DNA of 64,000 nt from Agelas oroides (lineage: Eukaryota; Porifera; Demospongiae; Agelasida; Agelasidae), in NCBI GenBank assembly GCA_949130485.1, contig OX422197.1, forward strand, positions 2,395,603 to 2,459,602, read 5' to 3'. The position numbers were made by a program, and so were the translations under genes. The notes below the pieces were generated by a model. It worked only from the letters and a program-made list of their open reading frames with translations, did no database searches and was not told the DNA's origin. Below are positions 1 to 64,000 of the stretch, piece after piece. How positions within the stretch are numbered: position 1 is the first letter of the stretch; each line of letters starts with the position of its first letter.

Positions 1-3000
1 CTCTACATTGCTCTACGACATTCTACCATGACTCTCCTTGACTCTACTTGACTATACTAAACTCTACTATGGCTCCACTACATTCTACCAAGGCTCTACT
101 TGACTCTACACGACTCTACTACATTCTACCTTGGCTCTACTTGGCTGTAGCTGGCTCTACTACACCCTGCCATGGCTCTACTACATTCTACCTAGGCTCT
201 ACTTGACTCTACACGACTCTACTACTCTCTACCATGACTCTACTTGGCTGTACCTGTCTGCACTACACTCTACCATGATTCTACTACATTCTACCATGGC
301 TCTACCTGACTCTACTTGACTGTACTACACTCTACTATGGTTCTACTACATTCTACCAAGGCTCTACTTGACTCTACACGACTCTACTACTCTCTACCAT
401 GACTCTTCTTGGATGTACCTGTCTGTACTACACTCCACCATGGCTCTCCTACATTCTACCTAGGCTCTACTCGCCTCTACATGACTCCACTCCATTCCAC
501 CATTGCTATTCTTGACTCTACTTAACTGTACTACACTATACCATGACTGTACTTGGTTCTACTTAGCTCTACTACACTCTACCATGGTCTACTACATTCT
601 ACCAAGGCTCTACTTGACTCTATATGACTCTACTACATTCTACCATGGCTCTACTTGGCTGTACCTGGCTGTACTACCCTCTTCCATGGCTCTACTACAT
701 TCTACCAAAGCTCTACTTGCCTATACATGACTCTACTGCATTCTACAAAGGCCCTACTTGACTGTACTTCACTCTACTACACTTCACCATGGCTCTACGC
801 GGCTCTACTTGACTCTACTATGCTCTACCATGTTCTACTTCATTCTACCAAGGCTCTACATGCCTCTACATGACACTACTACATTCTACCCTGGCTCTAC
901 TTGATTCTACTTGACTGTACTAAACTCTACTATGGCTCTACTACATTCTACCAAGGCTCTACTTGACTATACACGACTCAACTACTCTCTACCATGACTC
1001 TACTTGGATGTACCTCTCTATACTACACTCTACCATGGCTCTACAACATTCTACCAAGGCTCTACTTGACTCTACATTGCTCTACGACATTCTACTATGG
1101 CTCTACTTGACTCTACTTGACTATACTAAACTCTACTATGGCTCCACTACATTCTACCAAGTCTCTACTTGACTCTACACGATCCTACTACATTGTACCT
1201 TGGATCTACTTGGCTGTACCTGGCTCTACAACACTCTGCCATGCCTCTACTACATTTTACCAAGCCTCTACTTGACTCTACATGTCTCTACTTCTCTCTA
1301 CCATGATTCTACTTGGCTGTACCTGTCTGTACTACACTCTACAATGGCTCTACTACATTCTACCAATGCTCTACTTGACTCTACATGACTCTACTTCATT
1401 CCACCATTTCTCTTCTTGACTCTACTTGACTGTACTACACTCTACCATGGCTGTACTTTGTTCTACTTAGCTCTACTACACTCTACCATGGTCTACTACA
1501 TTCTCCCAAGGCTCTACTTGACTCTACATGACTCTACTTCATTCCACCATTGCTCTTCTTGACTCTACTTGACTGTACTACACTCTACCATGACTGTACT
1601 TGGTTCTACTTAGCTCTACTACACTCTACCATGGTGTACTTCATTCTACCAAGGCTCTACTTGACTCTACATGACTCTACTACATTCTACCATGGCTCTA
1701 CTTGGCTGTACCTGGCTCTACTACACTCTGCCATGGCTCTATACTACATTCTACCGAGGCTCTACTTGGCTGTACATGACTCTACTACATTCTTCACTCT
1801 CTACCATGACTGTACTTGGATGTACCTGCCTGTACTACACTCTACCATGACTCTGCTACATTCTACCATGGCTCTACTTGACTCTACTTGACTGTACTAC
1901 ACTCTACTATGGTTCTACTGCGCTCTACCAAGGCTCTACTTGACTCTACACGACTCTACTACTCTCTACCATGACTCTAGTTGGCTGTACCTGTCTGTAC
2001 TACACCCTACCATGGCTCTACTACATTCTACCAAGGCTCTACTTGACTGTACATGACTCTACTACATTCTACAAAGGCCCTACTTGACTCTACTTAACTC
2101 TACTACACTTCACCATGGCTCTACGTGGCTCTACTTGACTCTACTATACTCTACCATGGTCTACTACATTCTTCCAAGACTCTACTTGACTCTACACGAC
2201 TCTACTACATTCTACCATAGCTCTACTTGACTCTACTTGACTGTAATAAACTCTACTATCGCTCTACTACATTCTACCAAGGCTCTACTTGACGCTACTT
2301 GACTGTACTAAACTCTACTATGGCTCTACTACATTCTACCAAGGCTCTACTTGACTCTACACGACTCTACTACTCTCTATCATGACTCTACGTGGATGTA
2401 CCTGTCTGTACTGCACTCTACCATGGCTCTACTACATTCTACCAAGCCTTTGCTTGACTCTACATTGCTCTACTACATTCTACCATGGCTCTACTTGACT
2501 CTACTTGACTATACTAAACTCTGCTATGGCTCCACTACATTCTACCAAGGCTCTACTTGACTCTACACGACTCTACCACATTCTACCTTGGCTCTACTAC
2601 ACACTGCCATGGCTCTACTACATTCTACCAAGGCTCTACTTGACTCTACATGTCTCTACTACTCTCTACCATGACTCTACTTGAATGTACCTGTCTGTAC
2701 TACACTCTACCATGACTCTACTACATTCTACCATGGCGCTACTTGACTCTACTTGACTGTAGTACACTCTACTATGGTTTTACTACATTCTACCAAGGCT
2801 CTACTTGACTCTACACGACTCTACTTCTTTCTACCATGACTCTACCTGGCTGTACCTGTCTGTACTACACTCTACCATGGCTCTACTACATTCTACCAAG
2901 GCTCTACTTGACTCTACATGACTCTACTTCATTCCACCATTGCTCTTCTTGACTCTACTTGACTGTACTACACTCTACCATGGCTGTACTTGGTTCTACT

Positions 3001-3040
3001 TAGCTCTACTACATTCTACCAAGGCTCTACTTGACTCTAC

Positions 3041-4390
3041 ATGACTCTACTGCATTCTACCATGGCTCTACTTGGCTGTACCTGGATCTACTACACTCTG
3101 CCATGGCTCTACTTCATTCTACCAAGGCTCTACTTGGCTGTACATGATACTACTACATTCTTCACTCTCCACCATGACTCTACTTGGATGTACCTATCTG
3201 TACTACACTCTACCAATGCTCTACTACATTCTACCATGGCTCTACTTGACTCTACTTGACTGTACTACACTCTACTATGGTTCTACTACATTCTACCATG
3301 GCGCTACTTGACTCTACACGATTCTACTACTCTCTACCATTACTCTACTTGGCTGTACCTGTCTGTATTACACTCTACCAATGTTGTACTACATTCTACC
3401 AAGGCTCTACTTGACTCTACATGACTCTACTACATTCTACCATGGCTCTACTTGACTCTACTTGACTGTACTAAACTCTACTATGACTCTACTACATTCT
3501 ACCAAGGCTCTACTTGACTCTACACGACACTACTACTCTCTACCATGACTCTACTTCGATGTACCTCTCTGTACTACACCCTACCACGGCTCTACTACAT
3601 TCTACCAAGTCTCTACTTGACTCTACATTGCTCTACGACATTCTACCATGGCTCTACTTGACTCTACTTGACTATGCTAAACTCTACTATGGCTCCACTA
3701 CATTCTACCAAGGCTCTACTTGACTCTACACGACTCTACTACATTCTACCTTGGCTCTACTTGGCTGTAGCTGGCTCTACTACACTCTGCCATGGCTCTA
3801 CTACATTCTACCAAGGTTTACTTGACTCTACATGTCTCTACTTCTCTCTACCATGATTCTACTTGGCTGTACCTGTCTGTACTACACTCTACAATGGCTC
3901 TACTACATTCTACCAATGCTCTACTTGACTCTACATGACTCTACTTCATTCCACCATTGCTCTTCTTGACTCTACTTCACTGTACTACACTCTAACATGG
4001 CTGTACTTGGTTCTACTTAGCTCTACTACACTCTGCCATGGTCTACTACATTCTACCAAGGCTCTACTTGACTCTACAATTCTCTACGACATTCTAACAT
4101 GGCTCTCCTTGACTCTACTTGACTATACTAAACTCTACTATGGCTCCACTACATTCTACCAAGGCTCTACTTGACTCTACACGACCCTACTACATTCTAC
4201 CTTGGATGTACTTGGCTGTACCTGGCTCTACAACACTCTACCATGGCTCTACTACATTTTACCAAGCCTCTACTTGACTCTACATGTCTCTACTTCTCTC
4301 TACCATGATTCTACTTGGCTGTACCTGTCTGTACTACACTCTACAATGGCTCTACTACATTCTACCAAGGCTCTACTTGACTCTACATTC
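3041..4390 (+). repeat. Higher-order segment matching 18,826-20,176
   Basis: This block repeats, with scattered substitutions, 15,785-15,786 bp further on. Its markers keep their order and spacing: the TTCACTCTCCACCATGAC region, the CGATGTACCTCTCTG unit, the ACCCTACCACGGC unit, the CTACGACATTC unit, and the CTACAACACT unit (4,202 versus 19,988). The length of collinearity rules out chance similarity between simple monomers. It is visibly more diverged than the 2,656-bp tandem copies, so the duplication is older. Confidence 0.75.
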
Positions 4391-4735
4391 CTCTACGACA
4401 TTCTACCATGTCTCTACTTGACTCTACTTGACTACACTAAACTCTACTATGGCTCCACTACATTCTACCAAGGTTCTACTTGACTCTACACGACTCTACT
4501 ACATTCTACCTTGGCTCTACTTGACTCTACTTGACTGTACTAAACTCTACTATGACTCTACTACATTCTACCAAGGCTCTACTTGACTCTACACGACCCT
4601 CCTACTCTCTACCATGACTCTACTTCGATGTACCTCTCTGTACTACACCCTACCACGGCTCTACTACATTCTACCAAGTCTCTACTTGACTCTACATTGC
4701 TCTACGGCATTCTACCAAGGCTGTACTTTACTCTA

Positions 4736-4780
4736 TAGAGTCAAGTAGAGCCGTGTTAGGGTGTCATGTAGAGTCAAGTA
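4736..4780 (-). repeat. 45-bp inverted satellite fragment, copy 1
   Basis: Here the repeat is read on the opposite strand: the cores appear as GTAGAG and the tails as reversed forms (TCAAGTAGAGCCGTGTTAGG). The left junction is the 12-bp palindrome ACTCTATAGAGT (4,730-4,741). The right junction is the 18-bp perfect palindrome AGTCAAGTATACTTGACT (4,772-4,789). Positions 4,744-4,764 are the reverse complement, with one mismatch, of 4,645-4,665, about 80 bp upstream, so the fragment is a fold-back copy of its neighbour. The normal context elsewhere runs straight through, and here a TA is present on both sides of the insert. Confidence 0.93.
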
Positions 4781-6223
4781 TACTTGACTATACTAAACTC
4801 TACTTTGGCTCCACTACATTCTACCAAGGCTCTACTTGACTCTACACGACTCTACTACATTCTACCTTGGCTCTACTTGGCTGTAGCTGGCTCTACTACA
4901 CTCTGCCATGGCTCTACTACATTCTACCAAGGCTCTACTTGACTCTACATGTCTCTACTTCTCTCTACCATGATTCTACTTGGCTGTACCTGTCTGTACT
5001 ACACTCTACAATGGCTCTACTACATTCTACCAATGCTCTACTTGACTCTACATGACTCTACTTCATTCCACCATTGCTCTTCTTGACTCTACTTCACTGT
5101 ACTACACTCTAACATGGCTGTACTTGGTTCTACTTAGCTCTACTACACTCTGCCATGGTCTACTACATTCTACCAAGGCTCTACTTGACTCTACAATTCT
5201 CTACGACATTCTACCATGGCTCTCCTTGACTCTACTTGACTATACTAAACTCTACTATGGCTCCACTACATTCTACCAAGGCTCTACTTGACTCTACACG
5301 ACCCTACTACATTCTACCTTGGATGTACTTGGCTGTAGCTGGCTCTACTACACTCTGCCATGACTCTACTACATTCTACCAAGGCTCTACTTGACTCTAC
5401 ATGACTCTACTTCATTCCACCATTGCTCTTCTTGACTCTACTTCACTGTCCTACACTCTACCATGGCTGTACTTGGGTCTACTTAGCTCTACTACACTCT
5501 GCCATGGTCTACTACATTCTACCAAGGCTCTACTTGACTCTACATTGCTCTACGACATTCTACCATGACTCTCCTTGACTCTACTTGACTATACTAAACT
5601 CTACTATGGCTCCACTACATTCTACCAAGGCTCTACTTGACTCTACACGACTCTACTACATTCTACCTTGGCTCTACTTGGCTGTAGCTGGCTCTACTAC
5701 ACCCTGCCATGGCTCTACTACATACTACCTAGGCTCTACTTGACTCTACATGTCTCTACTTCTCTCTACCATGATTCTACTTGGCTGTACCTGTCTGTAC
5801 TACACTCTACAACGGCTCTACTACATTCTACCATGGCTCTACTTGACTCTACATGACTCTAGTTCATTCCACCATTGCTCTTCTTGACTCTACTTCACTG
5901 TACTACACTCTGCCATGGCTGTACTTGGTTCTACTTAGCTCTACTACACTCTGCCATGGTCTACTACATTCTACCAAGGCTCTACTTGACTCTATATGTC
6001 TCTACTTCTCTCTACCATGATTCTACTTGGCTGTACCTGTCTGTACTACACTCTACAATGGCTCTACTACATTCTACCAAGGCTCTACTTGACTCTACAT
6101 GACTCTACTTCATTCCACCATTGCTCTTCTTGACTCTACTTGACTCTACTTCACTCTACCATGGCTGTACTTGGTTCTACTTAGCTCTACTACACTCTAC
6201 CATGGTCTACTACATTCTACCAA

Positions 6224-6540
6224 GGATCTACTTGATTGTACATGACTCTACTTCATTCCACCATTGCTCTTCTTAACTCTACTTGACTGTACTACACTCT
6301 ACCATGGCTCTACTTGGCTGTACCTGGCTCTACTACACTCTGCCATCGCTCTACTACATTCTACCGAGGTTCTACTTGGCTGTACATGACTCTACTACAT
6401 TCTTCACTCTCTACCATGACTCTACTTGGATGTACCTGTCTGTACTAAACTCTACATGACTCTACTCCATTCTACCATGGCTCTTCTTGACTCTACTTGA
6501 CTGTACTAAACTCTACTATAGCTCTACTACATTCTACCAA
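6224..6540 (+). repeat. Nested 317-bp duplication, first copy
   Basis: The block starts at GGATCTACTTGATTGTACAT and repeats at 6,541. It includes the GCCATCGCTC variant, the ACCGAGGTTC variant and the TTCTTCACTCTCTACC unit. The two copies differ by one base that I saw (GCTCTTCTTAAC versus GCTTTTCTTAAC). The pair recurs at 8,880 and 9,197 inside the second 2,656-bp copy. Confidence 0.92.
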
Positions 6541-15326: not shown

Positions 15327-15371
15327 TGGAGTCAAGTAGAGCCGTGGTAGGGTGTCATGTAGAGTCAAGTA
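15327..15371 (-). repeat. 45-bp inverted satellite fragment, copy 3
   Basis: This is the third copy of the inverted fragment. The left junction has one substitution (CTATGGAG for CTATAGAG). The right junction keeps the 18-bp perfect palindrome AGTCAAGTATACTTGACT (15,363-15,380). The reverse-strand GCCGTGGTAGGGTGTC motif matches copy 2. As in copy 1, the forward version (ACACCCTACCACGGC) lies about 80 bp upstream. Confidence 0.93.
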
Positions 15372-48131: not shown

Positions 48132-48345
48132 CCCTACTCGGTTCTACTTGGCTCTACCACAGTCTACCATGGCTCTACTTGACTCTACTTGAATCGAGTG
48201 CATTCTACAATGGCTCTATTTGAGTCTCCATACCTCTACTACACTCTACCGTGGCACTACTTGACTCTACTTGACTCTACTTGAATCAACTACACTCTAC
48301 CATTCATCTACTTGGCTCTACTTTTCTCTACCACACTCTATCCCG
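48132..48345 (+). other. Junction between array A and array B
   Basis: Array A ends inside a copy of its divergent variant block (see 25,846-26,090). From 48,132 the sequence follows that block through ATTCATCTACTTGG and the CTTTTCTCTAC motif. At about 48,331, where the other copies continue into a segment containing ATGGGTCTACTTGCATGGC, this copy changes directly to CCACACTCTATCCCGTC and array B pattern. Beyond this point the tails change from TTGA/TACA/CATGG to CTCA/CACA/CCCGA with no intermediate monomers. A sharp switch inside a recognisable variant fits a recombination or amplification breakpoint better than gradual divergence. An assembly join cannot be excluded from sequence alone. Confidence 0.85.
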
Positions 48346-49260
48346 TCTCTACCTCACTCTACCACACTCCACCCTGGCTCGACCCGACTCTACCTCACAC
48401 TACCACACTCTACCCTGGCTCAACCCGACTCCACCTCACTCTACCACACTCTACCCTGACTCGACCTGACTCTACCTCACTCTACCACACTCTACCCCGA
48501 CTCTACCTCACTCTACCACACTCTACCCCGACTCTAACTCTCTCTACCACACTCTACCCCAACTCTACCTCACTGTACCACACTCTACCCTGGCTCGAGC
48601 CGACTCTACCTCTCTCTACCACACTCTACCCTGGCTAGACCCGACTATACCTCACTCTACCACACTCTACCCTGGCTCGACCCGACTCTACCTCACTCTA
48701 CCACACTCTACCCCGACTCTGCCTCACTCTTGCACACTTTACCCCGACTCTACCTCACTCTACCACACTCTACCCTGGCTCGACCCAACTCTACCTCACT
48801 CTACCACACTCTTCCCCGACTCTACCTCACTCTACCACACTCTACCCTCGCTCAACCCGACTGTACCTCACTCCACCACACTCTACCCTGTCTCAACGCG
48901 ACTCTACCTCACTCCAGCACACTCTACCCCAACTCTACCTCACTCTACCACACTCTACCCCGACTCTACCTCACTCTACCACACTCTACCCTGGCTCGAC
49001 CCGGCTCTACCTCACTCTACCACACTCTACCCTGGCTAGACCCGATTCTACCTCACTCTACCACACTCTACCCTGGCTCGATCCGACTCTACCTCACTCT
49101 ACCACACTCTACCCCGACTCTACCTCACTCTACCACACTTTACTCCGACTCTACCTCTCTCTACCACACTCTACCCTGTGTCGACCTGACTCTACCTTAC
49201 TCTACCACACTCTACCCTGGATCGACCCGTCTCTCCCTCACTCTACCACTCTCTACCCTG

Positions 49261-50300
49261 GCTCGACCCGACTCTACCTCACTCTACCACACTCTACCCT
49301 GGCTCGACCAGACTCTACCTCACTCTACCACAATCTACCCTAGCTAGACCCGACTCTACTTCACTCTACCACTTTCTACCCCGACTCTACCTCACTTTAC
49401 CACACTCTACCCGGACTCGACGCGACTCTACCTCACTCTACCACACTCTAACCCGACTCTACCTCACTCCACCACACTCTACCCCGTCTCTGCCTCACTC
49501 TACCACATTCCACCCTGGCTCGACCCGACTCTACCTCACTCTACCACACTCTACCCTGGCTCAACCCGACTCTACCTCACTCTACCACACTCTACCCCGA
49601 CTCGACCCAACTCTACCTCACTCTACCACACTCTACCCCGACTCTACCTCACTCTACCACACTCTACCCTGACTCTAACTCTCTCTTCCACACTCTACCC
49701 AAACTCTACCTCACTGTACCACACTCTACCCTGGCTCGACCCAACTCTACCTCTCTCTACCACACTCTACCATGGCTGGACCCGACTCTACCTCACACTA
49801 CCACACTCCACCCTGGCTAGACCGGACTCTACCTCACTCTACCACACTCTATCCTTTCTCGACCCGACTCTACCTCACTCAGCCACACTCCACACCAGCT
49901 CTACCTCACTCTACCACATCCTACCCCGACTCTATCTCACTCTACCACACTCCACCCTAGCTCGACCCGACTCTACCTCACTCTACCAAAGTCTACACCG
50001 ACTCTACCTCACTCTAGCACACACTACCCCAACTCTACCTCACTCTGCCTCACTCTACCCCGACTCTACCTCACTCTACCACAGTCTACTCTGGCTCGAC
50101 CCGACTCTACCTCACTCTACCACACTCTACCCTGGCTCAACCCTACACTACCTCACTCTACCACACTCTACCCTGGGTCGACCCGACTCTACCTTACTCT
50201 ACCACACTCTACCCCGACTCTACCTCACTCTACCCACTCTACCCCAGCTCTACCTCACTCTACCACACTCTACCATGGCTCGACCCAACTCTACCTCACT
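49261..50300 (+). repeat. Array B higher-order segment matching 51,976-53,010
   Basis: The segment is repeated at an offset of 2,705-2,716 bp. Shared rare variants are CTCGACCAGAC, CCCTAGCTAGACC with a following CTTCACTC, ACCACTTTC, CGGACTCGACGCG, ACATTCCACC, the CTAACTCTCTCTTCC unit, CTATCCTTTCTCG and CACACCAGCTC. Gains and losses of a few bases shift the offset slightly along the block. Partial collinearity continues to the left at a larger offset (48,887 versus 51,783). Confidence 0.85.
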
Positions 50301-51975
50301 CTACCACACTCTACCCCGAATCTACCTCACTCTACCACACGCTACCCTGGCTCGACCCGACTCTACCTCACTCTACCACACTCTACCCCGACTCTACCTC
50401 ACTCTACCTCACTCTAACCCGACTCTACCTCACTATACCACACTCTACCCTTGCTCGACCCGACTCTACCTCACTCTACCACACTCTACCCTGGCTCGAC
50501 CCGACTCTACCTCACTCTACCACACCCTTCCCCGACTCTACCTCACTCTACCACACTCTACCCTGGCTCAACCCGACTCTACCTCACTCTACCACACTCT
50601 ATCCTGGCTCGACCCTACACTACCTCACTCTACCACACTCTACCCCGCCTCTACCTCACTCTACCACACTTTACCCTGACTCTACCTCTCTGTACCACAC
50701 TCTACCCTGGGTCGACCCGACTCTACCTTACTCTACCACACTCTACCCCGACTCTACCTCACTCTACCACACTCTACCTCAATCTACCTCACTCTACCAC
50801 ACTCTACCCTGGCTCGATCCGACTCTACCTCACTCTACCACACTCTACCCTGGCTAGACCCGACTCCACCTCACTCTACCACACTCTACCCCAACTCTAC
50901 CTCAGTCTACCACACTCTACCCCGACTCTACCTCATTCTACCACAGTCTACCATGGCTCGACCCGACTCTACCTCACTCTACCACACTCTACCCCGACTC
51001 TACCTCACTCTAGCACACACTACCCCAACTCTACCTCACTCTACCTCTCTCTACCCCGACTCTACCTCACTCTACCACAGTCTACCATGGCTCGACCCGA
51101 CTCTACCTTACTCTACCACAATCTACCCCGACTCTACCTCTCTCTACCACGCTCTACCCCGACTCTACCTCACTCTACCCCGACTCAATCTCACTCTACC
51201 TCACTTTACCCCGACTCTACCTCTCTCTACCACACTCTACCCTGTGTCGACCCGACTCTACCTTACTCTACCACAATCTACCTTGACTCTTCCTCACTCT
51301 ACCACACTCTACCCCAACTCTACCTCACTATACCACACTCTACCCTGGCTCAACCCAACTCTACCTCACTCTACCACACTCTATCCCGACTCTACCTCAC
51401 TCTACCACACTATACCCGAACTCTACCTCACTCTACCACACTCTACCCCGACTCTACCTCACTCTACCACACTCTATCCCGACTCTACCTCACTCTACCA
51501 CACTTTACCCCGACTATACCTCTCTCTACCACAATCTACCCTGGGTCGACCTGACTCTACCTTACTCTACCACACTCTACCCCGACTCTACCTCACTCTA
51601 CCACACTCTACCCCAACTCTACCTCACTCTACCACACTCTACCCTGGCTCGACCCACCTCTACCTCACTCTACCACACTCTTCCCCGACTATACCTCACT
51701 CTACCACACTCTACCCCGACTCTACCTCATTCTACCACACTCTACCCTGGCTCAACCCGACTGTACCTCACTCTACCACACTCTACCCTGGCTCGACGCG
51801 ACTCTACCTCACTCCACCACACTCTACCCCAACTCTACCTCACTCTACCACACTCTACCCCGACTCTACCTCACTCTACCACACTCTACCCTGGGACAAC
51901 CAGGCTCTACCTCACTCTACCACACTCTACCCTGGCTAGACCCGACTCTACCTCACTCCTACCACTCTCTACCCT

Positions 51976-53010
51976 TGCTCGACCCGACTCTACCTCACTC
52001 TACCACACTCTAGCCTGGCTCGACCAGACTCTACCTCACTCTACCACACTCTACCCTAGCTAGACCCGACTCTACTTCACTCTACCACTTTCTACCCCGA
52101 CTCTATCTCACTTTACCACACTCTACCCGGACTCGACGCGACTCTACCTCACTCTACCACACTCTAACCCGACTCTACCTCAATCCACCACACTCTACCC
52201 CGTCTCTACCTCACTCTACCACATTCCACCCTGGCTCGACCCGACTCTACCTCACTCTACCACACTCTACCCTGGCTCAACCCGACACTACCTCACTCTA
52301 CCACACTCTACCCTGACTCAACCCAACTCTACCTCACTCTACGACACTCTACCCCGACTCTACCTCACTCTACCACACTCTACCCCAACTCTAACTCTCT
52401 CTTCCACACTCTACCCAAACTCTACCTCACTGTACCACACTCTACCCTGGCTCGACCCGACTCTACCTCTCTCTACCACACTCTACCTTGGCTAGACCCG
52501 ACTCTACCTCACACTACCACACTCTACCCTGGCTAGACCGGACTCTACCTCACTCTACCACATTCTATCCTTTCTCGACCCGACTCTACCTCACTCAGCC
52601 ACACTCCACACCAGCTCTACCTCACTCTACTACACCCTACCCTGACTCTATCTCACTCTACCACACTCCACCCTAGCTCGACCCGACTCTACCTCACTCT
52701 ACCACAGTCTACACCGACTCTACCTCACTCTAGCACACACTACCCCAACTCTACCTCACTCTACCTCACTCTACCCCGACTCTACCTCACTCTACCACAC
52801 TCTACCCTGGCTCGGCCCTACACTACCTCACTCTACCACACTCTACCCCGAATCTACTTCACTCTACCACACTCTACCCTGGGTCGACCCGACTCTACCT
52901 TACTCTATCACACTCTACCCCGACTCTACCTCACTCTACCCACTCTACCCCAACTCTACCTCACTCTACCACACTCTACCCTGGCTCGACCCAACTCTAC
53001 CTCACTCTAA
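51976..53010 (+). repeat. Array B higher-order segment matching 49,261-50,300
   Basis: This is the partner of 49,261-50,300. Its left part (CTAGCTAGACC, ACCACTTTC, CGGACTCGACGCG) is also shared with 57,177 onward and 61,387 onward. One higher-order element is therefore present at least four times in array B. Confidence 0.85.
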
Positions 53011-53224
53011 CACACTCTATCCCGATTCTACCTCACTCTTCCACACTCTACTCCATCTCTACCTCACTCTACCACACAATACCCCGACTCTACCTCACTC
53101 TACTACACTCTACCCCGACTCTACCTCACTCTACCACACTTTACCCCGACTCTACCTCTCTCTACCACACTCTACCCTTGGTCGACCTGACTCTACCTTA
53201 CTCTACCACTCTCTAACCCGACTC

Positions 53225-54540
53225 TACCTCACTCTACCACACTCTACCCCGACTCTACCTCACTCTACCACACTGTACCCCGACTCTACCTCCCTCTACC
53301 ACACTCTACCATGGCTCAACGCGACTCTACCTCGCTCCACCACACTCTACCCCAACTCTACCTCACTCTACCACACTCTACCTCGACTCTACCTCACTCT
53401 ACCATACTCTAAACTGGCTCGACCCGACTAGACCTCACTCTATCACAGTCTACCCTCGCTCGACCCTAATTTACCTCACTCTACCACACTCTACCCCGAC
53501 TCTACATCACTCTACCACACTCTACCCCAACTTTACCTCACTCTACCACACTCTACCCTGGCTCGACTCAACTCCACCTCACTCTACCACACTCTACCCC
53601 GTCTCTACCTCACTCTACCACACTCTACCACGATTCTACCTCACTCTACCACACTCTACCCCGACTCTACCTCACTCTACCACACTCTACCCTAGCTCGA
53701 TCCGACTCTACCTCACTCTACCACACTCTACTCCGACTCTGCCTCACTCTACCACACACTACCCCGACTCTACCTCACTCTACCACACTCTAGCCTCGCT
53801 CAACCCAACTCTGCCTCACTCTACCACACTCTATCCTGGCTCAACGCGTCTCTACCTCACTCCACCACACTCTACCCCAACTTTACCTCACTCTACCACA
53901 CTCTACCCTGGCTCGACCCGACTCTACCTCACTCTACCACACTCTACCCTGGCTAGACCCTACACTACCTCACTGTACCACACTCTAATCCGACTGTACG
54001 TCACTCTACCACACTTTACCCCGACTCTACCTCTCTCTACCACACTCTACCCTGGGTCGACCCGACTCTACCTTACTCTACCACACTCTACCCTGGCTCG
54101 ACCCGACTCTACCTCACTCTACCACACTCTTCCCCGACTCCACCTCACTCTACCACACTCTACCCTGGCTCAACCCGACTCTACCTAACTCTACCACACT
54201 CTACCCTGGCTCAACCCGACTCTATCCCAATCTACCACACTCTACCCTAGCTCGACCCTACTCTACCTCACTCTACCACACTCTACCCCGACTCTACCTC
54301 ACTCTACCACACTTTACCCTGACTCTACCTCTCTGTACCACTCTCTCCTCTGGGTCGACCCGACTCTACCTTACTCTACCACACTCTACCCCTACTCTAC
54401 CTCACTCTACCACACTCTACCTCACTCTATCTCACTCTACCACACTCTACCCTCGCTCGATCCGAACCTACCTCACTCTACCACACTCTACCCTGGCTAG
54501 ACCCGACACCACCTCACTCTACCACACCCTTCCCCAACTC
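53225..54540 (+). repeat. 1,316-bp tandem duplication, first copy
   Basis: The block is repeated directly at an offset of about 1,316 bp. Shared rare variants are CCTCCCTC, CATGGCTCAACGCG, CCTCGCTCC, CATACTCTAAACTGG, ACCACGATTC, the GCCTCGCTCAACC unit, TACGTCAC, CTCTCTCCTCTGGG and GACACCACC. Substitutions are scattered (for example ACCTCGACTC versus ACCTCAACTC), so it is older than the 1,421-bp event. Confidence 0.85.
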
Positions 54541-55856
54541 TACCTCACTCTACCACACTCTACCCCGACTCTACCTCACTCTACCACACTGTACCCCGAC
54601 TCTACCTCCCTCTACCACACTCTACCATGGCTCAACGCGACTCTACCTCGCTCCACCACACTCTACCCCAACTCTACCTCACTCTACCACACTCTACCTC
54701 AACTCTACCTCACTCTACCATACTCTAAACTGGCTCGACCCGACTAGACCTCACTATATCACAGTCTACCCTGGCTCAACCCGACTCTACCTCACTCTAC
54801 CACACTCTACCCTGACTTTACCTCACTCTACCACACTCTACCCCAACTCTATCTCACTCTACCACACTCTACCCTGGCTTGACCCAACTCCACCTCACTC
54901 TACTACACTCTACCCCGTCTCTACCTCACTCTACCACACTCTACCACGATTCTACCTCACTCTACCACACTCTATCCCGACTCTACCTCACTCTACCACA
55001 CCCTACCCTAGCTTGAGCCGACTCTACCTCACTCTACCACACTCTACCCCGACTCTACCTCACTCTACCACACACTACCCCGACTCTACCTCACTCTACC
55101 ACACTCTAGCCTCGCTCAACCCAACTCTGCCTCACTCTACCACACTCTATCCTGGCTCAACGCGACTCTAACTCACTCCACCACACTCTACCCCAACTTT
55201 ACCTCACTCTACCACACTCTACCCTGGCTCGACCCGACTCTACCTCACTCTACCACACTCTATCCTGGCTCGACCCGACACTACCTCACTCTACGACACT
55301 CTAACCCGACTCTACGTCACTCTACCACACTTTACCCCGACTCTACCTCTCTCTACCACACTCTACCCTGGGTCGACCCTACTCTACCTTACTCTACCAC
55401 ACTCTACCCTGGCTCGACCCGACTCTACCTCACTCTACCACACTCTTCCCCGACTCTACCTCACTCTACCACACTCTACCCTGGCTCAACCCGAGTCTAC
55501 CTCACTCTACCACACTCTACCCTGGCTCGACCCGTCTCCACCCCAATCTACCACACTCTACCCTGGCTCGACCCTACTCTACCTCACTCTACCACACTCT
55601 ACCCCGACTCTACCTCACTCTACCACACTTTACCCTGACTCTACCTCTCTGTACCTCTCTCTCCTCTGGGTCGACCCGACTCTACCTTACTCTACCACAC
55701 TCTACCTCGACTCTACCTCACTCTGCCACACTCTACCTCACTCTATCTCACTCTACCACACTCTACCCTGGCTCGATCCGACCCTACCTCACTCTACCAC
55801 ACTCTACCCTGGCTAGACCCGACACCACCTCACTCTACCACACTCTACCCCAACTC
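54541..55856 (+). repeat. 1,316-bp tandem duplication, second copy
   Basis: This directly follows the first copy and carries the same rare variants in order. Its part from about 54,943 is repeated again from about 57,731 (offset 2,788 falling to 2,717 after a loss of about 71 bp). This gives a third, partial copy. Confidence 0.85.
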
Positions 55857-57730
55857 TACCTCTGTCTACCACACTCTTCCCCGACTCTACCTCACTCTAC
55901 CACACTCTACCCTTGCTCGACCCGACTCTACCTCACTCTACCACACTCTACCCTGGTTCGACCCGACTCTACCTCACACTACCACACTCTACCCCGACTC
56001 TACCTCACTATAGCACACACTAACCCAACTCTACCTCACTCTACCTCACTCTACCCCGACTCTACCTCACTCTACCACAGTCTACCCTTGCTCGACACAA
56101 CTCTACCTTACTCTACCACACTCTACCCCGACTCTACCTCACTCTACCACGCTCTACCCCGACTCTACCTCACTCTACCACCATCTACCCCGACTCAACC
56201 TAACTCTACCTCACTTTACCACGACTCTACCTCTCTCTACCACACTCTACCCTGGGTCGACCCGACTCTACCTTACTCTACCACACTCTCCCTTGACTCT
56301 ACCTCACTCTACCACACTCTACCCCAACTCTACCTCACTATACCACACTCTACCCTGGCTCAACCCAACTCTACCTCACTCTGCCACACTCTATCCCGAC
56401 TCTACCTCACTCTACCACACTCTACCCGAACTCTACCTCACTATACCACACTCTACCCCGAATCAACCTCACTCTACCACACTCTACCCCGACTCTACCT
56501 CACTCTACCACACTTTACCCCGACTATACATCTCTCTACCACAATCTACCCTGGGTCGACCTGACTCTACCTTACTCTACCACACTCTACCCCGACTCTA
56601 CCTCACTCTACCACACTCTACCCCAACTCTACCTCTCTCTACCACAATTTACCCTGGCTCGATCCAACCCTACCTCACTCTACCACACTCTTCCCCGACT
56701 CTACCTCACTCTACCACACTCTACCCCGACTCTACCTCACTCTACCACACTCTACCCTGTCTTAACCCAACTCTACCTCACTCTACCACACTCTACCCCG
56801 ACTCTACCTTACTCTACCACACTCTACCCTGGCTTAACCCGGCTCTACCTCACTATACCACACTCTACCCTGGCTAGACCCGACTCTACCTCACTCTACC
56901 ACACTCTACCCTGGCTCGATCCGACTCTACCTCACTCTACCACACTCTACCCCGACTCTACCTCACTCTACCACACTTTACCCCGACTCTACCTCTCTCT
57001 ACAACACTCTACCCTGTGTCGACCTGACTCTACCTTACTCTACCACACTCTAACCTGGCTCGACCCAACTCTCCCTCACTCTACCACTCTCTACCCTGGC
57101 TAGACCCAAGTCTACCTCACTCTACCACACTGTACCCTGGCTCGACCAGACTCTACCTCACTCTACCACACTCTACCCTAGCTAGACCCGACTCTACTTC
57201 ACTCTACCACTTTCTACCCCGACTCTACCTCACTTTACCACACTCTACCCGGACTCGACGCGACTCTACCTCACTCTACCACACTCTTCCCCAACTCTAC
57301 CTCACTCCACCACTCTCTACCCCGACTCTACCTCACTCTACCACACTCTACCCCGACTCTACCTCACTCTACCACACTTTACCCCGACTCTACCTCTCTC
57401 TACCACACTCTACCCTGGGTCGACCTGACTCTACCTCACTCTACCACACTCTACCCCGACTCTACCTCACTCTACCACACTCTACCCCAACTCTACCTCA
57501 CTCTTCCACACTCTACCCTGGCTCGACCCAACTCTACCTCACTCTACCACACTCTTCCCCGACTCTACCTCACTCTACCACACTCTACCCTGGCTCGACC
57601 CAACTCTACCTCACTCTATCACACTCTACCCTGGCTCAACCCTTCTCTACCTCACTCTACCGCACTCTACCCCGACTCTACCTCACTCTACCACACTTTA
57701 CCCCTACTCTACCTCTCTCTACCACACTCT
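55661..57730 (+). repeat. Array B higher-order segment, oldest copy of the 2,717-bp offset set
   Basis: From the CTCTGGGTCGACC unit at 55,661 this stretch matches 58,378 onward at 2,716-2,717 bp. Its right part (CTAACCTGGC, CTAGCTAGACC, CGGACTCGACGCG) matches 61,261 onward at 4,210 bp. It is thus a composite whose left and right halves were both copied downstream. Several substitutions separate it from the 58-61 kb copies. Confidence 0.82.
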
Positions 57731-58369
57731 ACCACGATTCTACCTCACTCTACCACACTCTATCCCGACTCTACCTCACTCTACCACACCCTACCCTAGC
57801 TCGAGCCGACTCTACCTCACTCTACCACACTCTACACCGACTCTACCTCACTCTACCACACACTACCCCGACTCTACCTCACTCTACCACACTCTAGCCT
57901 CGCTCAACCCAACTCTGCCTCACTCAACCACACTCTATCCTGGCTCAACGCGACTCTAACTCACTCCACCACACTCTACCCCAACTTTACCTCACTCTAC
58001 CACACTCTACCCTGGCTCGACCCGACTCTACCTCACTCTACCACACTCTACCCTGGCTCGACCCGACACTACCTCACTCTACGACACTCTAACCCGACTC
58101 TACGTCACTCTACCACACTTTACCCCGACTCTACCTCTCTCTACCACACTCTACCCTGGGTCGACCCGACTCTACCTTACTCTACCACACTCTACCCTGG
58201 CTCGACCCGACTCTACCTCACTCTACCACACTCTACCCTGGCTCGACCCGACTCTACCCCAATCTACCACACTCTACCCTGGCTCGACCCTACTCTACCT
58301 CACTCTACCACACTCTACCCCGACTCTACCTCACTCTACCACACTTTACCCTGACTCTACCTCTCTGTA

Positions 58370-59790
58370 CCACTCTCTCCTCTGGGTCGACCCGACTCTA
58401 CCTTACTCTACCACACTCTACCTCGACTCTACCTCACTCTGCCACACTCTACCTCACTCTATCTCACTCTACCACACTCTACCCTGGCTCGATCCGACCC
58501 TACCTCACTCTACCACACTCTACCCTGGCTAGACCCGACACCACCTCACTCTACCACACTCTACCCCAACTCTACCTCTGTCTACCACACTCTTCCCCGA
58601 CTCTACCTCACTCTACCACACTCTACCCTTCCTCGACCCGACTCTACCTCACTCTACCACACTCTACCCTGGTTCGACCCGACTCTACCTCACACTACCA
58701 CACTCTACCCCGACTCTACCTCACTATAGCACACACTACCCCAACTCTACCTAACTCTACCTCACTCTACCCCGACTCTACCTCACTCTACCACAGTCTA
58801 CCCTTGCTCGACACAACTCTACCTTACTCTACCACACTCTACCCCGACTCTACCTCACTCTACCACGCTCTACCCCGACTCTACCTGACTCTACCACCAT
58901 CTACCCCGACTCAACCTAACTCTACCTCACTTTACCCCGACTCTACCTCTCTCTACCACACTCTACCCTGGGTCGACCCGACTCTACCTTACTCTACCAC
59001 ACTCTCCCTTGACTCTACCTCACTCTACCACACTCTACCCCAACTCTACCTCACTATACCACACTCTACCCTGGCTCAACCCAACTCTACCTCACTCTAC
59101 CACACTCCATCCCGACTCTACCTCACTCTACCACACTCTACCCGAACTCTACCTCACTATACCACACTCTACCCCGACTCTACCTCACTCTACCACACTC
59201 TACCCCGACTCTACCTCACTCTACCACACTTTACCACGACTATACCTCTCTCTACCACAATCTACCCTGGGTCGACCTGACTCTACCTTACTCTACCACA
59301 CTCTACCCCGACTCTACCTCACTCTACCACACTCTACCCCAACTCTACCTCACTCTACCACACTTTACCCTGGCTCGATCCAACCCTACCTCACTCTACC
59401 ACACTCTTCCCCGACTCTACCTCACTCTACCACACTCTACCCCGATTCTACCTCACTCTACCACACTCTACCCAGTCTTAACCCGACTCTACCTCACTCT
59501 ACCACACTCTACCCTGGCTCGACGCGACTCTACCTCACTCCACCACACTCCTACCCCAACTCAACCTCACTCTACCACACTCTACCCCGACTCTACCTTA
59601 CTCTACCACACTCTACCCTGGCTTAACCCGGCTCTACCTCACTATACCACACTCTACCCTGGTTAGACCCGTCTCTACCTCACTCTACCACACTCTACCC
59701 TGGCTCGATCCGACTCTACCTCACTCTACCACACTCTACCCCGACTCTACCTCACTCTACCACACTTTACTCCGACTCTACCTCTCTCTA
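58370..59790 (+). repeat. 1,421-bp tandem duplication, first copy
   Basis: The sequence from the CTCCTCTGGGTCGACC region (58,378) repeats at 59,799, an offset of 1,421 bp. Rare shared forms include CTGCCACACTC, CTTCCTCGACC, CTGGTTCGACC, CTTGCTCGACACAAC, CTCCCTTGAC, CACACTCCATCCCG, CCCAGTCTTAACC and CACTCCTACCCC. Only a few single-base differences were seen (for example ACACACTACCCC versus ACACACTAACCC), so this is the most recent visible event in array B. Confidence 0.9.
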
Positions 59791-61211
59791 CCACTCTCTC
59801 CTCTGGGTCGACCAGACTCTACCTTACTCTACCACACTCTACCTCGACTCTACCTCACTCTGCCACACTCTACCTCACTCTATCTCACTCTACCACACTC
59901 TACCCTGGCTCGATCCGACCCTACCTCACTCTACCACACTCTACCCTGGCTAGACCCGACACCACCTCACTCTACCACACTCTACCCCAACTCTACCTCT
60001 GTCTACCACACTCTTCCCCGACTCTACCTCACTCTACCACACTCTACCCTTCCTCGACCCGACTCTACCTCACTCTACCACACTCTACCCTGGTTCGACC
60101 CGACTCTACCTCACACTACCACACTCTACCCCGACTCTACCTCACTATAGCACACACTAACCCAACTCTACCTCACTCTACCTCACTCTACCCCGACTCT
60201 ACCTCACTCTACCACAGTCTACCCTTGCTCGACACAACTCTACCTTACTCTACCACACTCTACCCCGACTCTACCTCACTCTACCACGCTCTACCCCGAC
60301 TCTACCTGACTCTACCAACATCTACCCCGACTCAACCTAACTCTACCTCACTTTACCCCGACTCTACCTCTCTCTACCACACTCTACCCTGGGTCGACCC
60401 GACTCTACCTTACTCTACCACACTCTCCCTTGACTCTACCTCACTCTACCACACTCTACCCCAACTCTACCTCACTATACCACACTCTACCCTGGCTCAA
60501 CCCAACTCTACCTCACTCTACCACACTCCATCCCGACTCTACCTCACTCTACCACACTCTACCCGAACTCTACCTCACTATACCACACTCTACCCCGACT
60601 CTACCTCACTCTACCACACTCTACCCCGACTCTACCTCACTCTACCACACTTTACCACGACTATACCTCTCTCTACCACAATCTACCCTGGGTCGACCTG
60701 ACTCTACCTTACTCTACCACACTCTACCCCGACTCTACCTCACTCTACCACACTCTACCCCAACTCTACCTCACTCTACCACACTTTACCCTGGCTCGAT
60801 CCAACCCTACCTCACTCTACCACACTCTTCCCCGACTCTACCTCACTCTACCACACTCTACCCCGATTCTACCTCACTCTACCACACTCTACCCAGTCTT
60901 AACCCGACTCTACCTCACTCTACCACACTCTACCCTGGCTCGACGCGACTCTACCTCACTCCACCACACTCCTACCCCAACTCAACCTCACTCTACCACA
61001 CTCTACCCCGACTCTACCTTACTCTACCACACTCTACCCTGGCTTAACCCGGCTCTACCTCACTATACCACACTCTACCCTGGTTAGACCCGTCTCTACC
61101 TCACTCTACCACACTCTACCCTGGCTCGATCCGACTCTACCTCACTCTACCACACTCTACCCCGACTCTACCTCACTCTACCACACTTTACCCCGACTCT
61201 ACCTCTCTCTA
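59791..61211 (+). repeat. 1,421-bp tandem duplication, second copy
   Basis: This is a direct tandem copy of 58,370-59,790. It ends where CTACCACTCTCTCCTC of the junction is replaced by CTACCACACTCTACCCTGTG near 61,211. Beyond that the sequence continues into the segment shared with 57,001-57,725. Confidence 0.9.
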
Positions 61212-61935
61212 CCACACTCTACCCTGTGTCGACCTGACTCTACCTTACTCTACCACACTCTAACCTGGCTCGACCCAACTCTCCCTCACTCTACCACTCT
61301 CTACCCTGGCTCGACCCAACTCTACCTCACTCTACCACACTGTACCCTGGCTCGACCAGACTCTACCTCACTCTACCACACTCTACCCTAGCTAGACCCG
61401 ACTCTACTTCACTCTACCACTTTCTACCCCGACTCTACCTCACTTTACCACACTCTACCCGGACTCGACGCGACTCTACCTCACTCTACCACACTCTTCC
61501 CCAACTCTACCTCACTCCACCACCCTCTACCCCGACTCTACCTCACTCTACCACACTCTACCCCGACTCTACCTCACTCTACCACACTTTACCCCGACTC
61601 TACCTCTCTCTACCACACTCTACCCTGGGTCGACCTGACTCTACCTCACTCTACCACACTCTACCCCGAATCTACCTCACTCTACCACACTCTACCCCAA
61701 CTCTACCTCACTCTTCCACACTCTACCCTGGCTCGACCCAACTCTACCTCACTCTACCACACTCTTCCCGACTCTACCTCACTCTACCACACTCTACCCT
61801 GGCTCGACCCAACTCTACCTCACTCTATCACACTCTACCCTGGCTCAACCCTTCTCTACCTCACTCTACCGCACTCTACCCCGACTCTACCTCACTCTAC
61901 CACACTTTACCCCTACTCTACCTCTCTCTACCACA
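61212..61935 (+). repeat. Array B segment matching 57,001-57,725
   Basis: Collinear with 57,001-57,725 at an offset of 4,210 bp, marked by TAACCTGGC, CTAGCTAGACC, CACTTTC, CGGACTCGACGCG and CAACCCTTCTC. One single-base loss is seen near 61,766 (CTTCCCGAC for CTTCCCCGAC). Homology ends at about 61,935, where the earlier copy continues into ACCACGATTC. Confidence 0.85.
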
Positions 61936-61984
61936 CTCTACCCTGGGTCGACCAGACTCTACCTTACTCTACCACACTCTACCC

Positions 61985-62380
61985 CGAATCTACCTCACTC
62001 AACCACAGTCCACCCTAGCTCGACCCGACTGTACCTCGCTCTACCACACTCCACCCGGACTCTACCTCACTCTAGCACACACTGCCCCGACTCTACCTCA
62101 CTCCACCTCATTCTACCCCGACTCAATCTCACTCTACCACAGTCTACCCTGGCTCGACCCGACTCTACCTCACTCTACCACACTCTACCCCGACTCTACC
62201 TCACTCTACCACACTCTACCCCGAATCTACCTGACTCTACCACACTCTACCCTGGCTCGACTCGACGCTACCTCACACTACCACACTCTACCCTCACTCG
62301 ACAAGACTCTACCTCACTCTACCACACTCTACCCTGGCTCGACCCGACTATACCTCACTCTACCACACTGTACCCCGACT
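61985..62380 (+). repeat. Array B segment matching 63,580-63,975
   Basis: Shared rare forms are CTAGCTCGACCCGA with a following GTGTACC or CTGTACC, CCTCGCTC, CTGACTCTACC and GGCTCGACTCGACGC, at an offset of about 1,595 bp (62,254 versus 63,849). The second copy is cut by the end of the window. Confidence 0.75.
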
Positions 62381-63579
62381 CTACCTAACTCTACCACACT
62401 CTATCCTGGCTCAACCCTACTCTACCTCACTCTACCACACTCTACCCTCGCTCGACACGACTCTACCTCACTCTACCACACTCTACCCCAACTCTACCTC
62501 ACTCTACCACACTCTACCTCGACTCTACCTCACTCTACCACACTCTATCCTGGCTCGACCCAACTCTACCTCACTCTACCACACTCTACCCTTGCTAGAC
62601 CCAACTCTACCTCACTATACCACACCCTACCCTAGCTCAACACTTCTCTACCTCACTCTACCACACTCTACCCCGACTCTACCTCACTCTATCACACTTT
62701 ACCCCGACTCTACCTCTCTCTACCACACTGTACCCCGACTCTACCTCACTCTACCACAGTCTACCCCAACTGTACCTCACTCTACCACACTCCACCCTGG
62801 CTCGACCCAACTCTACCTCACTCTACCACACTCTACCCCGACTCTACCTCACTCTACCACACTCTACCCTGACTCTACCTCACTCTACCACACTCTACTC
62901 CGACTCTTCCTCACTCTACCACACTCTACCCTGGCTCGACCCGACTCTACCTCACTCTACCACACTCTACCTCGACTCTACCTCACTCTACCACACTCTA
63001 CCCTGACTCAACCCTACTCTACCTCACTCTACCACACTTTATTCTGGCTCAACGCGACTCTACCTCACTCCACCACACTCTACCCAAACTCTACCTCACT
63101 CTACCACACTCTACCCTGGCTCGACCCGACTCTACCTCGCTCTACCACACTCTACCCTGGCTCGACCCTACTCTACCTTACTCTACCACACTCTATCCCG
63201 ACTCTACCTCACTCTACCGCACTTTACCCCGACTCTACCTCCCTCTACCACACTCTACCCTGGATCGACCCGACTGTACCTCACTCTACCACACTCTACC
63301 CCGACTCTACCTCACTCTACCACACTCTACCATGGCTAGACCCAACTCTACCTCACTCTACCGCACTCTACCCCGACTCTACCTCACTCTACCACACTCT
63401 ACCCTTGCTCGACCCGACTCTACCTCACTCTACCACACTCTACCCTGGCTCGACCCGACTCTACCTCACTCTACCACACTCTACCCCGACTCTGCCTCAC
63501 TCTAGCACACACTACCCCAACTCTACCTCACTCTACCCCGACTCTACCTCACTCTACCACAGTCTACCCTGGCTCGACC

Positions 63580-64000
63580 CGACTCTACTTCACTATACCA
63601 CACTCTACCCCGAATCTACCTCACTCAACCACACTCCATCCTAGCTCGACCCGAGTGTACCTCGCTCTACCACTCTCTACCCCGACTCTACCTCACTCTA
63701 GCACACACTACCCCGACTCTACCTCACTCTACCATAGTCTACCCTGGGTCGACCCGACTCTACCTCACTCTACCACACTCTACCCCGACTCTACCTCACT
63801 CTACCACACTCTACCCCGACTCCACCTGACTCTACCACACTCTACCCTGGCTCGACTCGACGCTACCTCACTCTACCTCACTCTACCCTCACTCGACCAG
63901 ACTCTACCTCACTCTACCACACTCTACCCTGGATCGACCCGACTCTACCTCACTCTACCACACTGTACCCCGACTCTACTACACTCTACCACACTCTATC
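63580..64000 (+). repeat. Array B segment matching 61,985-62,380, cut by the window end
   Basis: This is the partner of 61,985-62,380 at an offset of about 1,595 bp. The GGCTCGACTCGACGC form and the following ACCCTCACTCGAC unit appear in the same order. Array B continues beyond the window, so the full length of this higher-order unit is unknown. Confidence 0.72.

Follow-up and report, generated by a model that had tools for sequence, protein, structure and literature searches.

According to TRF, the whole window (the 64,000-nt stretch that was analysed) consists of CTCTAC satellite arrays. The exact motif occurred 3,310 times, compared with 644.5 ± 21 in shuffles. The following features were located:

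1 to 48320 (right end approximate), forward strand: array A, 10/11-bp monomers with the core CTCTAC.
48330 to 64000 (left end approximate), forward strand: array B, same core as array A, in 31- and 41-bp units.
48300 to 48350, forward strand: A/B junction, placed to within a few monomers.
4731 to 4777, reverse strand: patch of inverted monomers (GTAGAG) in array A, with parse steps of 9, 16 and 12 bp.
6400 to 6408, forward strand: example of a 9-bp monomer in array A.
1737 to 1748, forward strand: a 12-bp monomer of array A as an example, containing one additional TA (CTCTATAC).

The main tails between the cores were TACA, TTGA, CATGG, TTGG and CAAGG in array A and CACA, CTCA, CCCGA, CCTGG and CCGA in array B, where CTCGAC was a frequent core variant without TA. 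The elevens of array A were usually separated by one, three or five tens (21, 41 or 61 bp). Array A extends leftward past the window, with exact 67-mer matches starting at C15:2,264,928. The first exact B dimer was found at 48,347, and no foreign sequence was seen at the junction. B-type sequence stops at about C15:2,703,300, where inverted A-type sequence starts (samples L019, L037, L038 and L021). Patches resembling the inverted one lie near 13,273 and 15,322 in array A. The 9-bp monomer repeats in the same context and is an inherited register break; monomers of 12 bp made up 32 of the 5,670 in array A. The 12 open reading frames of at least 150 amino acids, 10 of them in array B, are mechanical.

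Monomers were parsed by a trained segmentation of the window extended by 10 kb at either end, and a flat-spacing parse was dropped because of paired artefacts (6+15, 7+14). Array A yielded 4,082 tens, 1,509 elevens and 79 others (5,591 of 5,670 being 10 or 11 bp long), and array B 1,755 tens, 720 elevens and 3 others (2,475 of 2,478). The autocorrelation of TA positions over the window, proposed as a check in an earlier sequence-only reading, showed that TA repeats about once per helical turn in both arrays. It reached 4.2-fold at lag 10, 3.7-fold at 31 and 4.9-fold at 41 in array A, and 6.6-, 8.1- and 7.8-fold at the same lags in array B. The TA spectrum of array A peaked at 10.2526 bp and that of array B at 10.2884 bp. 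The 10.25 bp claimed for array A was therefore reproduced (10.253 bp), while for array B the spacing of about 10 bp held but not the exact value of 31/3 = 10.33 bp, the peak being at 10.288 bp with 31- and 41-bp units mixed. Runs of tens between the elevens of array B had a length of two in 394 and three in 308 of 716 cases, giving a mean monomer of 10.289 bp. That a TA step occurs every 10 or 11 bp was broadly correct, but among the 10- and 11-bp monomers the core TA was absent from 678 of 5,591 in array A (12%) and 497 of 2,475 in array B (20%), and 1,505 of the 5,591 A monomers (27%) had a second, off-phase TA 3 bp downstream.

The TA amplitude at 10.25 bp, given as the median of 147-bp windows, was 0.078 in array A and 0.074 in array B. 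Dinucleotide shuffles gave 0.019 and 0.018, comparison samples L020, L023, L025 and L031 0.012 to 0.024, mitochondrial sample L029 0.015 and a 72-bp satellite (L024) 0.028. The best vector strength of monomer starts was 0.34 in A versus 0.85 in B, and array A is not fully coherent in phase. Over 1,000 monomers the phase spread was 1.6 bp in B, compared with 20 bp under independent spacings (random-walk null), and 13.5 compared with 23 in A. This coherence was set aside as a sign of selection, because 31/3 and 41/4 are nearly equal and whole units can be mixed in any proportion without loss of coherence.

Genome-wide, the CTCTAC pattern gave 278,333 matches, compared with 137 for a reversed control. 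The family was found on C1, C3, C5, C10, C12, C15, C17, C19, C21 and C23, and its long head-to-tail arrays, present in high copy on several chromosomes, are satellite DNA. One main array per chromosome, as in centromeric DNA, was not found on C15, with arrays at 2.10, 2.26-2.70 and 5.2-5.6 Mb, or on C1, with many small ones. Fourteen further stretches were parsed from C1, C3, C5, C10, C12, C15, C17, C21 and C23. Ten of them had a mean monomer of 10.24-10.30 bp with 10,10,10,11 runs; the exceptions were L128 (10.32), L132 (10.45) and L133 (10.48), all from C1, and L035 from C15 (10.39, 28 monomers). The commonest five-base tails were alike between arrays, CATGG recurring in those of A type and CCTGG and CCCGA in those of B type, which by eye suggests tail homology across the family. 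A 150-base B pattern gave no matches and a shorter B pattern was used instead. Rfam at the gathering threshold gave no matches in samples L013, L024 and L021.

It had further been proposed that spacing rather than sequence is conserved. Spacing was indeed kept better than tail sequence, but TA was hardly singled out within the core. Rates of core and tail are biased, as tail counts take in minor bases, and within-core comparisons alone were used. TA was substituted at 0.75 times the rate of the other core bases in array A (p=0.02) and at 0.92 times in array B (p=0.63), and T4 changed 1.1 times as often as T2 in A (not significant) and 2.2 times as often in B (p=0.02). Gap lengths were taken from nearest-copy alignments. 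In array B, 47 of 77 gaps were 10 bp long, and 64 measured 10, 11, 20, 21, 31 or 41 bp. In array A, gaps of 9-11, 20-21, 30-32 or 40-41 bp accounted for 58 of 149; 78 were shorter than 9 bp, so turnover in this array was not mainly by whole units. Register-breaking and whole-unit net shifts numbered 31 and 27 in A versus 5 and 48 in B. Register breaks as common as whole-unit shifts, which the same reading had named as evidence against itself, were thus present in A and absent from B.

Small indels per substitution were fewer in array B (12/1,001) than in array A (78/2,357, p=0.0004) or the 72-bp satellite (20/444, p=0.0003). Another figure for the latter, 57/661, was left unused because a 71-base alignment consensus creates false 1-bp gaps. 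Homopolymers do not explain the few indels of B, since its content of bases in runs of at least four (4.8%) differs little from the 6.1% of the 72-bp satellite. A dispersed element with 16 copies gave 15/107 relative to the majority and 6/117 between nearest pairs, a weak control in which 12 of the 16 copies carry an indel against the majority, probably in part at one shared site. Other tandem arrays, also weak controls, gave 1/54, 0/0, 0/4, 20/45, 3/3, 4/30 and 0/15. BLAST matches among non-satellite samples (e.g. gap openings/mismatches of 5/26, 7/47, 2/21 and 2/16) were too few and too diverged for a firm indel control. Array B holds its register better than these weak controls predict.

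Pitches of 10.25-10.29 bp are close to the nucleosomal helical repeat, and scores for nucleosome-type sequence were compared with the 95th percentile of background. The TA-only rotational contrast exceeded this value in 99% of A blocks and 99.9% of B blocks, and the contrast of TA with SS in 76% and 99%. The full W/S contrast, for which the background omits the tandem arrays L058, L063 and L069, exceeded the cut-off in 1.0% of blocks in A and 54% in B. The same score was above the cut-off in 93% and 97% of blocks of the 72-bp satellite, 6.7% in A-type L058, 37% in the 21-bp array L069, 1.3% in the 42-bp array L020 and 0% in the 55-bp array L022. The contrast of TA/AA/TT with GC gave 32% in A and 16% in B, compared with 93-99% in the 72-bp satellite, and the combined WW-SS amplitude exceeded the background 95th percentile in 88% of B windows and 3.4% of A windows.

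GC and GG lay about half a turn off TA in both arrays, and all SS steps together at 168 degrees from TA in A (5-kb sample) and 98 degrees in B. In array A the steps AA, TT and AT were positioned 3-4 bp from TA, which accounts for its SS-WW angle of 117 degrees (5-kb L016 sample) and its W/S contrast at background. In array B the dominant CC lay 2.35 bp from TA, about a quarter turn, and the SS-WW angle was 102 degrees (5-kb sample). The 72-bp satellite had an angle of 172 degrees; by their angles, neither A nor B has WW steps recurring at about 10.2 bp in opposite phase to SS. Curvature by A-tracts looks unlikely in these arrays, since homopolymer runs of at least four bases cover 0.2% of A, and AA and TT are rare in B (1.2-1.3% each).

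The 72-bp satellite, which lies on the chromosome of the window, scored higher than A and B in W/S contrast and carries a fuller nucleosome-type pattern than the CTCTAC arrays. It had first been taken as an unphased control and proved more phased than the window. Among the matches listed (for two of three lists, the best 100 of 8,030 and the best 100 of 259) it was present on at least 15 contigs, mostly in one interval each, except that C12 had two and C1 had a stray match. It was not found in one sample of C8. It is a candidate centromere repeat, and a limited literature search turned up no sponge centromere DNA.

The TA pitch is probably best explained by inheritance from a 41-bp unit, with the register kept by whole-unit turnover, and the passive origin from unit length, which the sequence-only reading held in reserve, fitted best. 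The family to which the window belongs is estimated at 9-16 Mb of 259 Mb, in what is probably a demosponge genome. Its ancestor would have been a 41-bp unit in which three CTCTAC monomers of 10 bp were followed by one of 11 bp, and the arrays would owe to it their mean pitch of about 10.25 bp; inheritance is the simplest account because ten of the 14 other stretches keep to this pitch. Whole monomers or groups of monomers would then have been gained and lost, giving variants of 21, 31, 41 and 62 bp and keeping the pitch, as such turnover adds or removes whole units and largely preserves the register, while tails and even the TA step have drifted or been replaced. The unit layout, the spacing, the mutation counts and the distribution were observed in the samples, and the single ancestor and this turnover are inferred. 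The similar tails, the gap lengths in array B, the spread of CTCGAC there despite its loss of TA, and the poor conservation of TA (at best 0.75 times the rate of other core bases in A, none in B) were counted in favour of inheritance; the many gaps below 9 bp in A and the scarcity of indels in B were counted against it.

A nucleosome lattice in heterochromatin, with the TA spacing kept by selection because it fixes rotational phase, is unlikely. The pitch falls in the nucleosomal range, the TA-only and TA-SS contrasts were high, the WW-SS amplitude of B was mostly above background and register breaks in B were very scarce. However, the full W/S contrast was at background in A and intermediate in B, the WW-SS amplitude of A was low, the contrasts of TA/AA/TT with GC in both arrays fell below those of the 72-bp satellite, AA, TT and AT in A and CC in B were out of phase with TA, A has many off-phase TA steps and B has lost many TA steps, and register breaks in A matched whole-unit shifts. 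The lattice proposed from sequence was partly supported: TA scored alone was far above background in both arrays, and the full W/S contrast was raised in B. Nucleosomes on B probably have a weak rotational preference, as a by-product and not as the demonstrated reason for the spacing. It is highly improbable that CTCTAC is a protein site, with one-turn spacing bringing the sites to the same side of the helix and TA mattering solely as part of the site. The constant part is the whole core and not TA, and Drosophila Prodsat, which takes its name from a satellite-binding protein, offers a parallel. We know of no protein binding CTCTAC, the core variants CTGTAC, TTCTAC and CTCGAC have each multiplied, and exchange between monomers would also give a constant core. 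Chance, or an artefact of low complexity or assembly, is almost out of the question: the sequence is repetitive and large assembled arrays may contain errors, but TA amplitude exceeded that of dinucleotide shuffles about fourfold, similar spacing was parsed on eight further contigs, and random assembly or read errors should add indels, which were few.

Still quite doubtful is a broader reading, in which two unlike satellite families share a 10.25-10.29 bp pitch in one sponge genome, B actively resists register-breaking indels and the 72-bp satellite forms the centromere. CTCTAC would then be the TA-based family and the 72-bp satellite one of seven turns with full WW/SS antiphase, and if true, satellites of a non-bilaterian animal would be under selection for helical register. 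Under the inherited 41-bp unit, a periodic TA step and nucleosome-type sequence, often merged, come apart here. Spacing alone is weak evidence of positioning, as a TA phase can come with the repeat unit while a published type of score stays at background. The comparison also exposed a concrete candidate for sponge centromere DNA in the 72-bp satellite, which occurs on many chromosomes and whose phasing is almost that of a textbook case.

The 'strong nucleosome' sequences of Trifonov share a visible TA periodicity with the CTCTAC arrays; theirs is reportedly near 10.4 bp, and they are said to be enriched at centromeres and not to form a one-unit megabase satellite. Closer in unit length are the 5- and 10-bp centromeric satellites of Drosophila (Prodsat AATAACATAG, AATAG and AATAT), which are bound by cenH3 in native ChIP, have interruptions that keep to an AANRN period of 5 bp, as credited there to Lohe and Brutlag (1987), and are proposed to gain an advantage from rotational phasing (PMC5844345). 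As in the present arrays, short units near half or one helical turn preserve their spacing, but the Drosophila units are AA-based, whereas CTCTAC is TA-based, mixes 10 and 11 bp and occupies several internal sites per chromosome (PMC5844345). On maize CentC, a centromere satellite of about 156 bp, nucleosomes are described as tracking a dinucleotide periodicity of about 10 bp and not the monomer register, as expected for a uniform lattice (PMC3053214). With its AA/TT periodicity, nucleosome-length unit and in vivo data, CentC resembles the 72-bp satellite more closely than it does the CTCTAC arrays (PMC3053214). That WW steps recur every 10 bp in many satellites, and that this favours rotational phasing, is already on record (PMC8997354); unlike these satellites, array A has its WW steps, except TA itself, out of phase with TA.

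The CTCTAC satellite filled the entire window (C15:2,395,603-2,459,602, in a genome of 259 Mb; C numbers denote contigs and L numbers sampled stretches). Genome-wide, the pattern CTCTACNNNNCTCTAC gave 278,333 matches versus 137 for the reversed control. Its density in the window was 17 matches per kb in array A and 32 per kb in array B, and division of the match count by these densities gave an estimate of about 9-16 Mb of CTCTAC satellite. A-type sequence on C15 started at or before 2.265 Mb, with a sample at 2.25 Mb lying outside the array, and ended at window position ~48,320. B-type sequence followed to the right in the C15 samples up to ~2.7033 Mb (C15:~2,703,300, L021 ~3,300), where inverted A-type sequence started at an abrupt boundary; samples at 2.725 and 2.75 Mb were outside the CTCTAC array. 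The A flanks of B are thus in opposite orientations, which suggests an expansion of B inside A, or an inversion. Further CTCTAC arrays were present on C15 at 2.10 Mb and 5.2-5.6 Mb, and samples at 5.1 and 5.8 Mb lay outside them. An exact B 79-mer occurred 62 times (C5, C10, C12, C15, C17, C21) and an exact A 67-mer 97 times (C12, C15, C19, C23). On C12, A matches at 1.957-2.030 Mb and B matches at 2.106-2.109 Mb were ordered as on C15. Short patches of inverted monomers, similar in sequence, were seen in array A at window positions 4731, 13273 and 15322. Odd monomers common to the window and L016 were 5,537 bp apart and point to a segmental duplication.

The sequence-only reading had placed a TA step about once per helical turn. 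This was confirmed by spectral peaks at 10.2526 bp in array A and 10.2884 bp in array B, the proposed value for B having been 10.33 bp. Within the window and 10 kb on each side, monomers of 10 or 11 bp were nearly universal (5,591 of 5,670 in A and 2,475 of 2,478 in B). Dinucleotide shuffles reached roughly a quarter of the TA amplitude of the arrays. Runs of tens between elevens were mostly 1, 3 or 5 monomers long in A (355, 937 and 120 of 1,438); in B their usual length was 2 or 3 (394 and 308 of 716). Ten of the 14 other CTCTAC stretches parsed had a mean monomer of 10.24-10.30 bp and runs of 10,10,10,11. The deviating stretches, L128, L132 and L133 on C1 and L035 on C15, had means of 10.32-10.48 bp, and L132 contained many irregular spacings. 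One 41-bp ancestor may be common to the CTCTAC arrays; loss and gain of whole monomers from this unit would yield 21, 31, 41 and 62 bp, and such turnover would require no selection on pitch. Inheritance of the pitch from the 41-bp unit is the explanation that we consider likely.

Conservation of the register had been proposed as well, to be doubted where register-breaking indels are as common as whole-monomer ones. Net shifts were counted in pairs of less than 8% divergence (120 in A, 57 in B), with 10, 11, 20-22, 31-32, 41 and 62 bp taken as whole units by a grouping of our own. Register-breaking and whole-unit shifts were about equally common in A (31 versus 27) and not in B (5 versus 48), a change of monomer length by 1 bp (10 to 11) being scored as register-breaking although it lies within the proposed 10-11 bp. 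Small indels in A were also more numerous than any single class of whole-unit gaps, a point against turnover mainly by whole monomers there. Nearest-copy alignments comprised 145 segments of A, 62 of B (1 more skipped) and 24 of a second repeat on C15, the 72-bp satellite (1 more skipped). Indels of <9 bp per substitution were 78/2,357, 12/1,001 and 20/444, respectively. The rate in A did not differ from that of the 72-bp satellite (p=0.26), while that of B was below both the 72-bp satellite (p=0.0003) and A (p=0.0004); these p-values are optimistic, as events can be common to neighbouring pairs. Other tandem arrays, compared with their own consensus, gave 1/54, 0/0, 0/4, 20/45, 3/3, 4/30 and 0/15. 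The following dispersed element served as a control:

C15:2,200,711-2,201,079, element of ~367 bp that contains inverted repeats and looks like a MITE; scored at 39 further full-length places

Its indels per substitution were 15/107 against the majority and 6/117 between nearest pairs. Other copies were 92-94% identical to the C15 copy, and 15 examined copies were closer to one another. The shortage of small indels in B is not accounted for by the proposed 41-bp ancestry.

Recent substitutions in A affected TA at 84/8,631 versus 210/16,143 in the rest of the core (0.75-fold, p=0.02), and in B at 56/3,935 versus 127/8,223 (0.92-fold, p=0.63). The T4/T2 substitution ratio was 1.1 in A (p=0.79) and 2.2 in B (p=0.02). 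TA was missing from 12% of the cores in A and 20% in B, and 27% of A monomers had a second TA 3 bp off.

Likeness to nucleosome DNA depended on the scoring. With TA scored alone, 99% of blocks in A and 99.9% in B exceeded the background 95th percentile (72-bp satellite, 13% and 17%), in agreement with the proposed nucleosome-positioning lattice. The full W/S rotational contrast (W, A or T; S, G or C) did so in 1.0% of blocks in A (n=5,814) and 54% in B (n=2,534); this puts A at background and B at an intermediate level, and argues against the lattice. The same measure gave 93% and 97% for two 72-bp satellite samples (n=484 and 134), 6.7% for the A-type stretch L058, 37% for a 21-bp array (L069), 1.3% for a 42-bp array and 0% for a 55-bp array. 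The scheme followed PMC4261538, with the sign rule taken from its description there and not from an explicit formula, and with sites put at SHL x 10.45 bp, which reproduced the one site quoted in that description. The background was drawn from 19 samples free of the listed satellites, after removal of three that held tandem arrays. TA versus SS scoring gave 76% in A and 99% in B; TA/AA/TT versus GC scoring placed 32% of A, 16% of B and 93-99% of 72-bp satellite blocks above background. A simpler WW-SS amplitude exceeded background in 3.4% of A, 88% of B, and 95% and 100% of the 72-bp satellite.

In A, AA, TT and AT were centred 3.1-4.0 bp from TA, and the GC and GG steps lay roughly half a helical turn from it; in B, CC was centred at 2.35 bp and GC, GG and CG at 4.2-4.8 bp. 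The SS-WW angle was 117, 102 and 172 degrees and the SS-TA angle 168, 98 and 177 degrees in A, B and the 72-bp satellite, respectively, A and B being represented by one 5-kb sample each (for A, L016 1-5000, directly left of the window). The 168 degrees in A speak for a lattice. AA, TT and AT carry weight in the W/S scheme as PMC4261538 describes it, and A was at background in W/S but not in TA-only scoring; the verdict on A therefore hinges on the weighting of these steps. Overall, a nucleosome-positioning lattice appears unlikely.

The 72-bp satellite was found at C15 ~3.93-4.2 Mb (L024, L071, L082, L083) and lacked CTCTAC (L024). Its WW and SS peaks were at 10.28-10.30 bp and in antiphase, 72 bp being 7 x 10.28 bp. 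Pattern matches and short samples placed it on at least 15 contigs (C1-C7, C9-C15, C18). Among the matches listed, it mostly formed one interval per contig of up to ~0.32 Mb, with two intervals on C12 and one stray match on C1 as exceptions, and the main interval lay at 0.35-0.64 of the contig on 14 of 15 contigs and at 0.82 on C1. On C2, samples 100 kb to either side of the match were without the satellite. The two families were apart on C5, C10, C12 and C15, the contigs with both mapped. Position and phasing make the 72-bp satellite a candidate centromere repeat of a demosponge.

Both ends of C15 carried TTAGGG telomeres. A 55-bp repeat with near-identical copies adjoined the telomere on C15 and C3 (L022 428-4265; L027 729-2861), with 0 substitutions/3,600 bp (L022) and 4/2,121 bp (L027) against each array's consensus. 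The 22.4-kb contig C141 (L009-L014, L029) was mitochondrial, with TGA read as Trp and atp9 present; among the 22 mtDNAs of PMC2444032, atp9 is given for every demosponge except Amphimedon queenslandica. Its cox1 was interrupted after ...FFGH by a stretch with an ORF containing LAGLIEGDG and LAGFLDADG (LAGLIDADG type), motifs reported for the cox1 introns of Plakortis and Tetilla in PMC2444032, which mentions such an intron in corals too; intron positions in sponges are treated in PMC5360047. Telomeres, cox1 interruption and atp9 together indicate that the host is probably a demosponge, with atp9 as the trait that speaks for a sponge. The 16.8-kb contig C107 (L011, L015, L028) carried a frame resembling cox1 that lacked internal TGA, together with a long CRISPR-like array of regular repeats and spacers, and probably derives from a bacterial symbiont or contaminant.

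Helical phasing has been described in satellites (PMC8997354, PMC3053214, PMC5844345). In Drosophila 5-mers, spacing was kept while the sequence changed (PMC5844345), and units of 5-10 bp are a common satellite class (PMC8122249). As these features are already published, the CTCTAC satellite belongs, on the statements of these papers, to a known kind of satellite.
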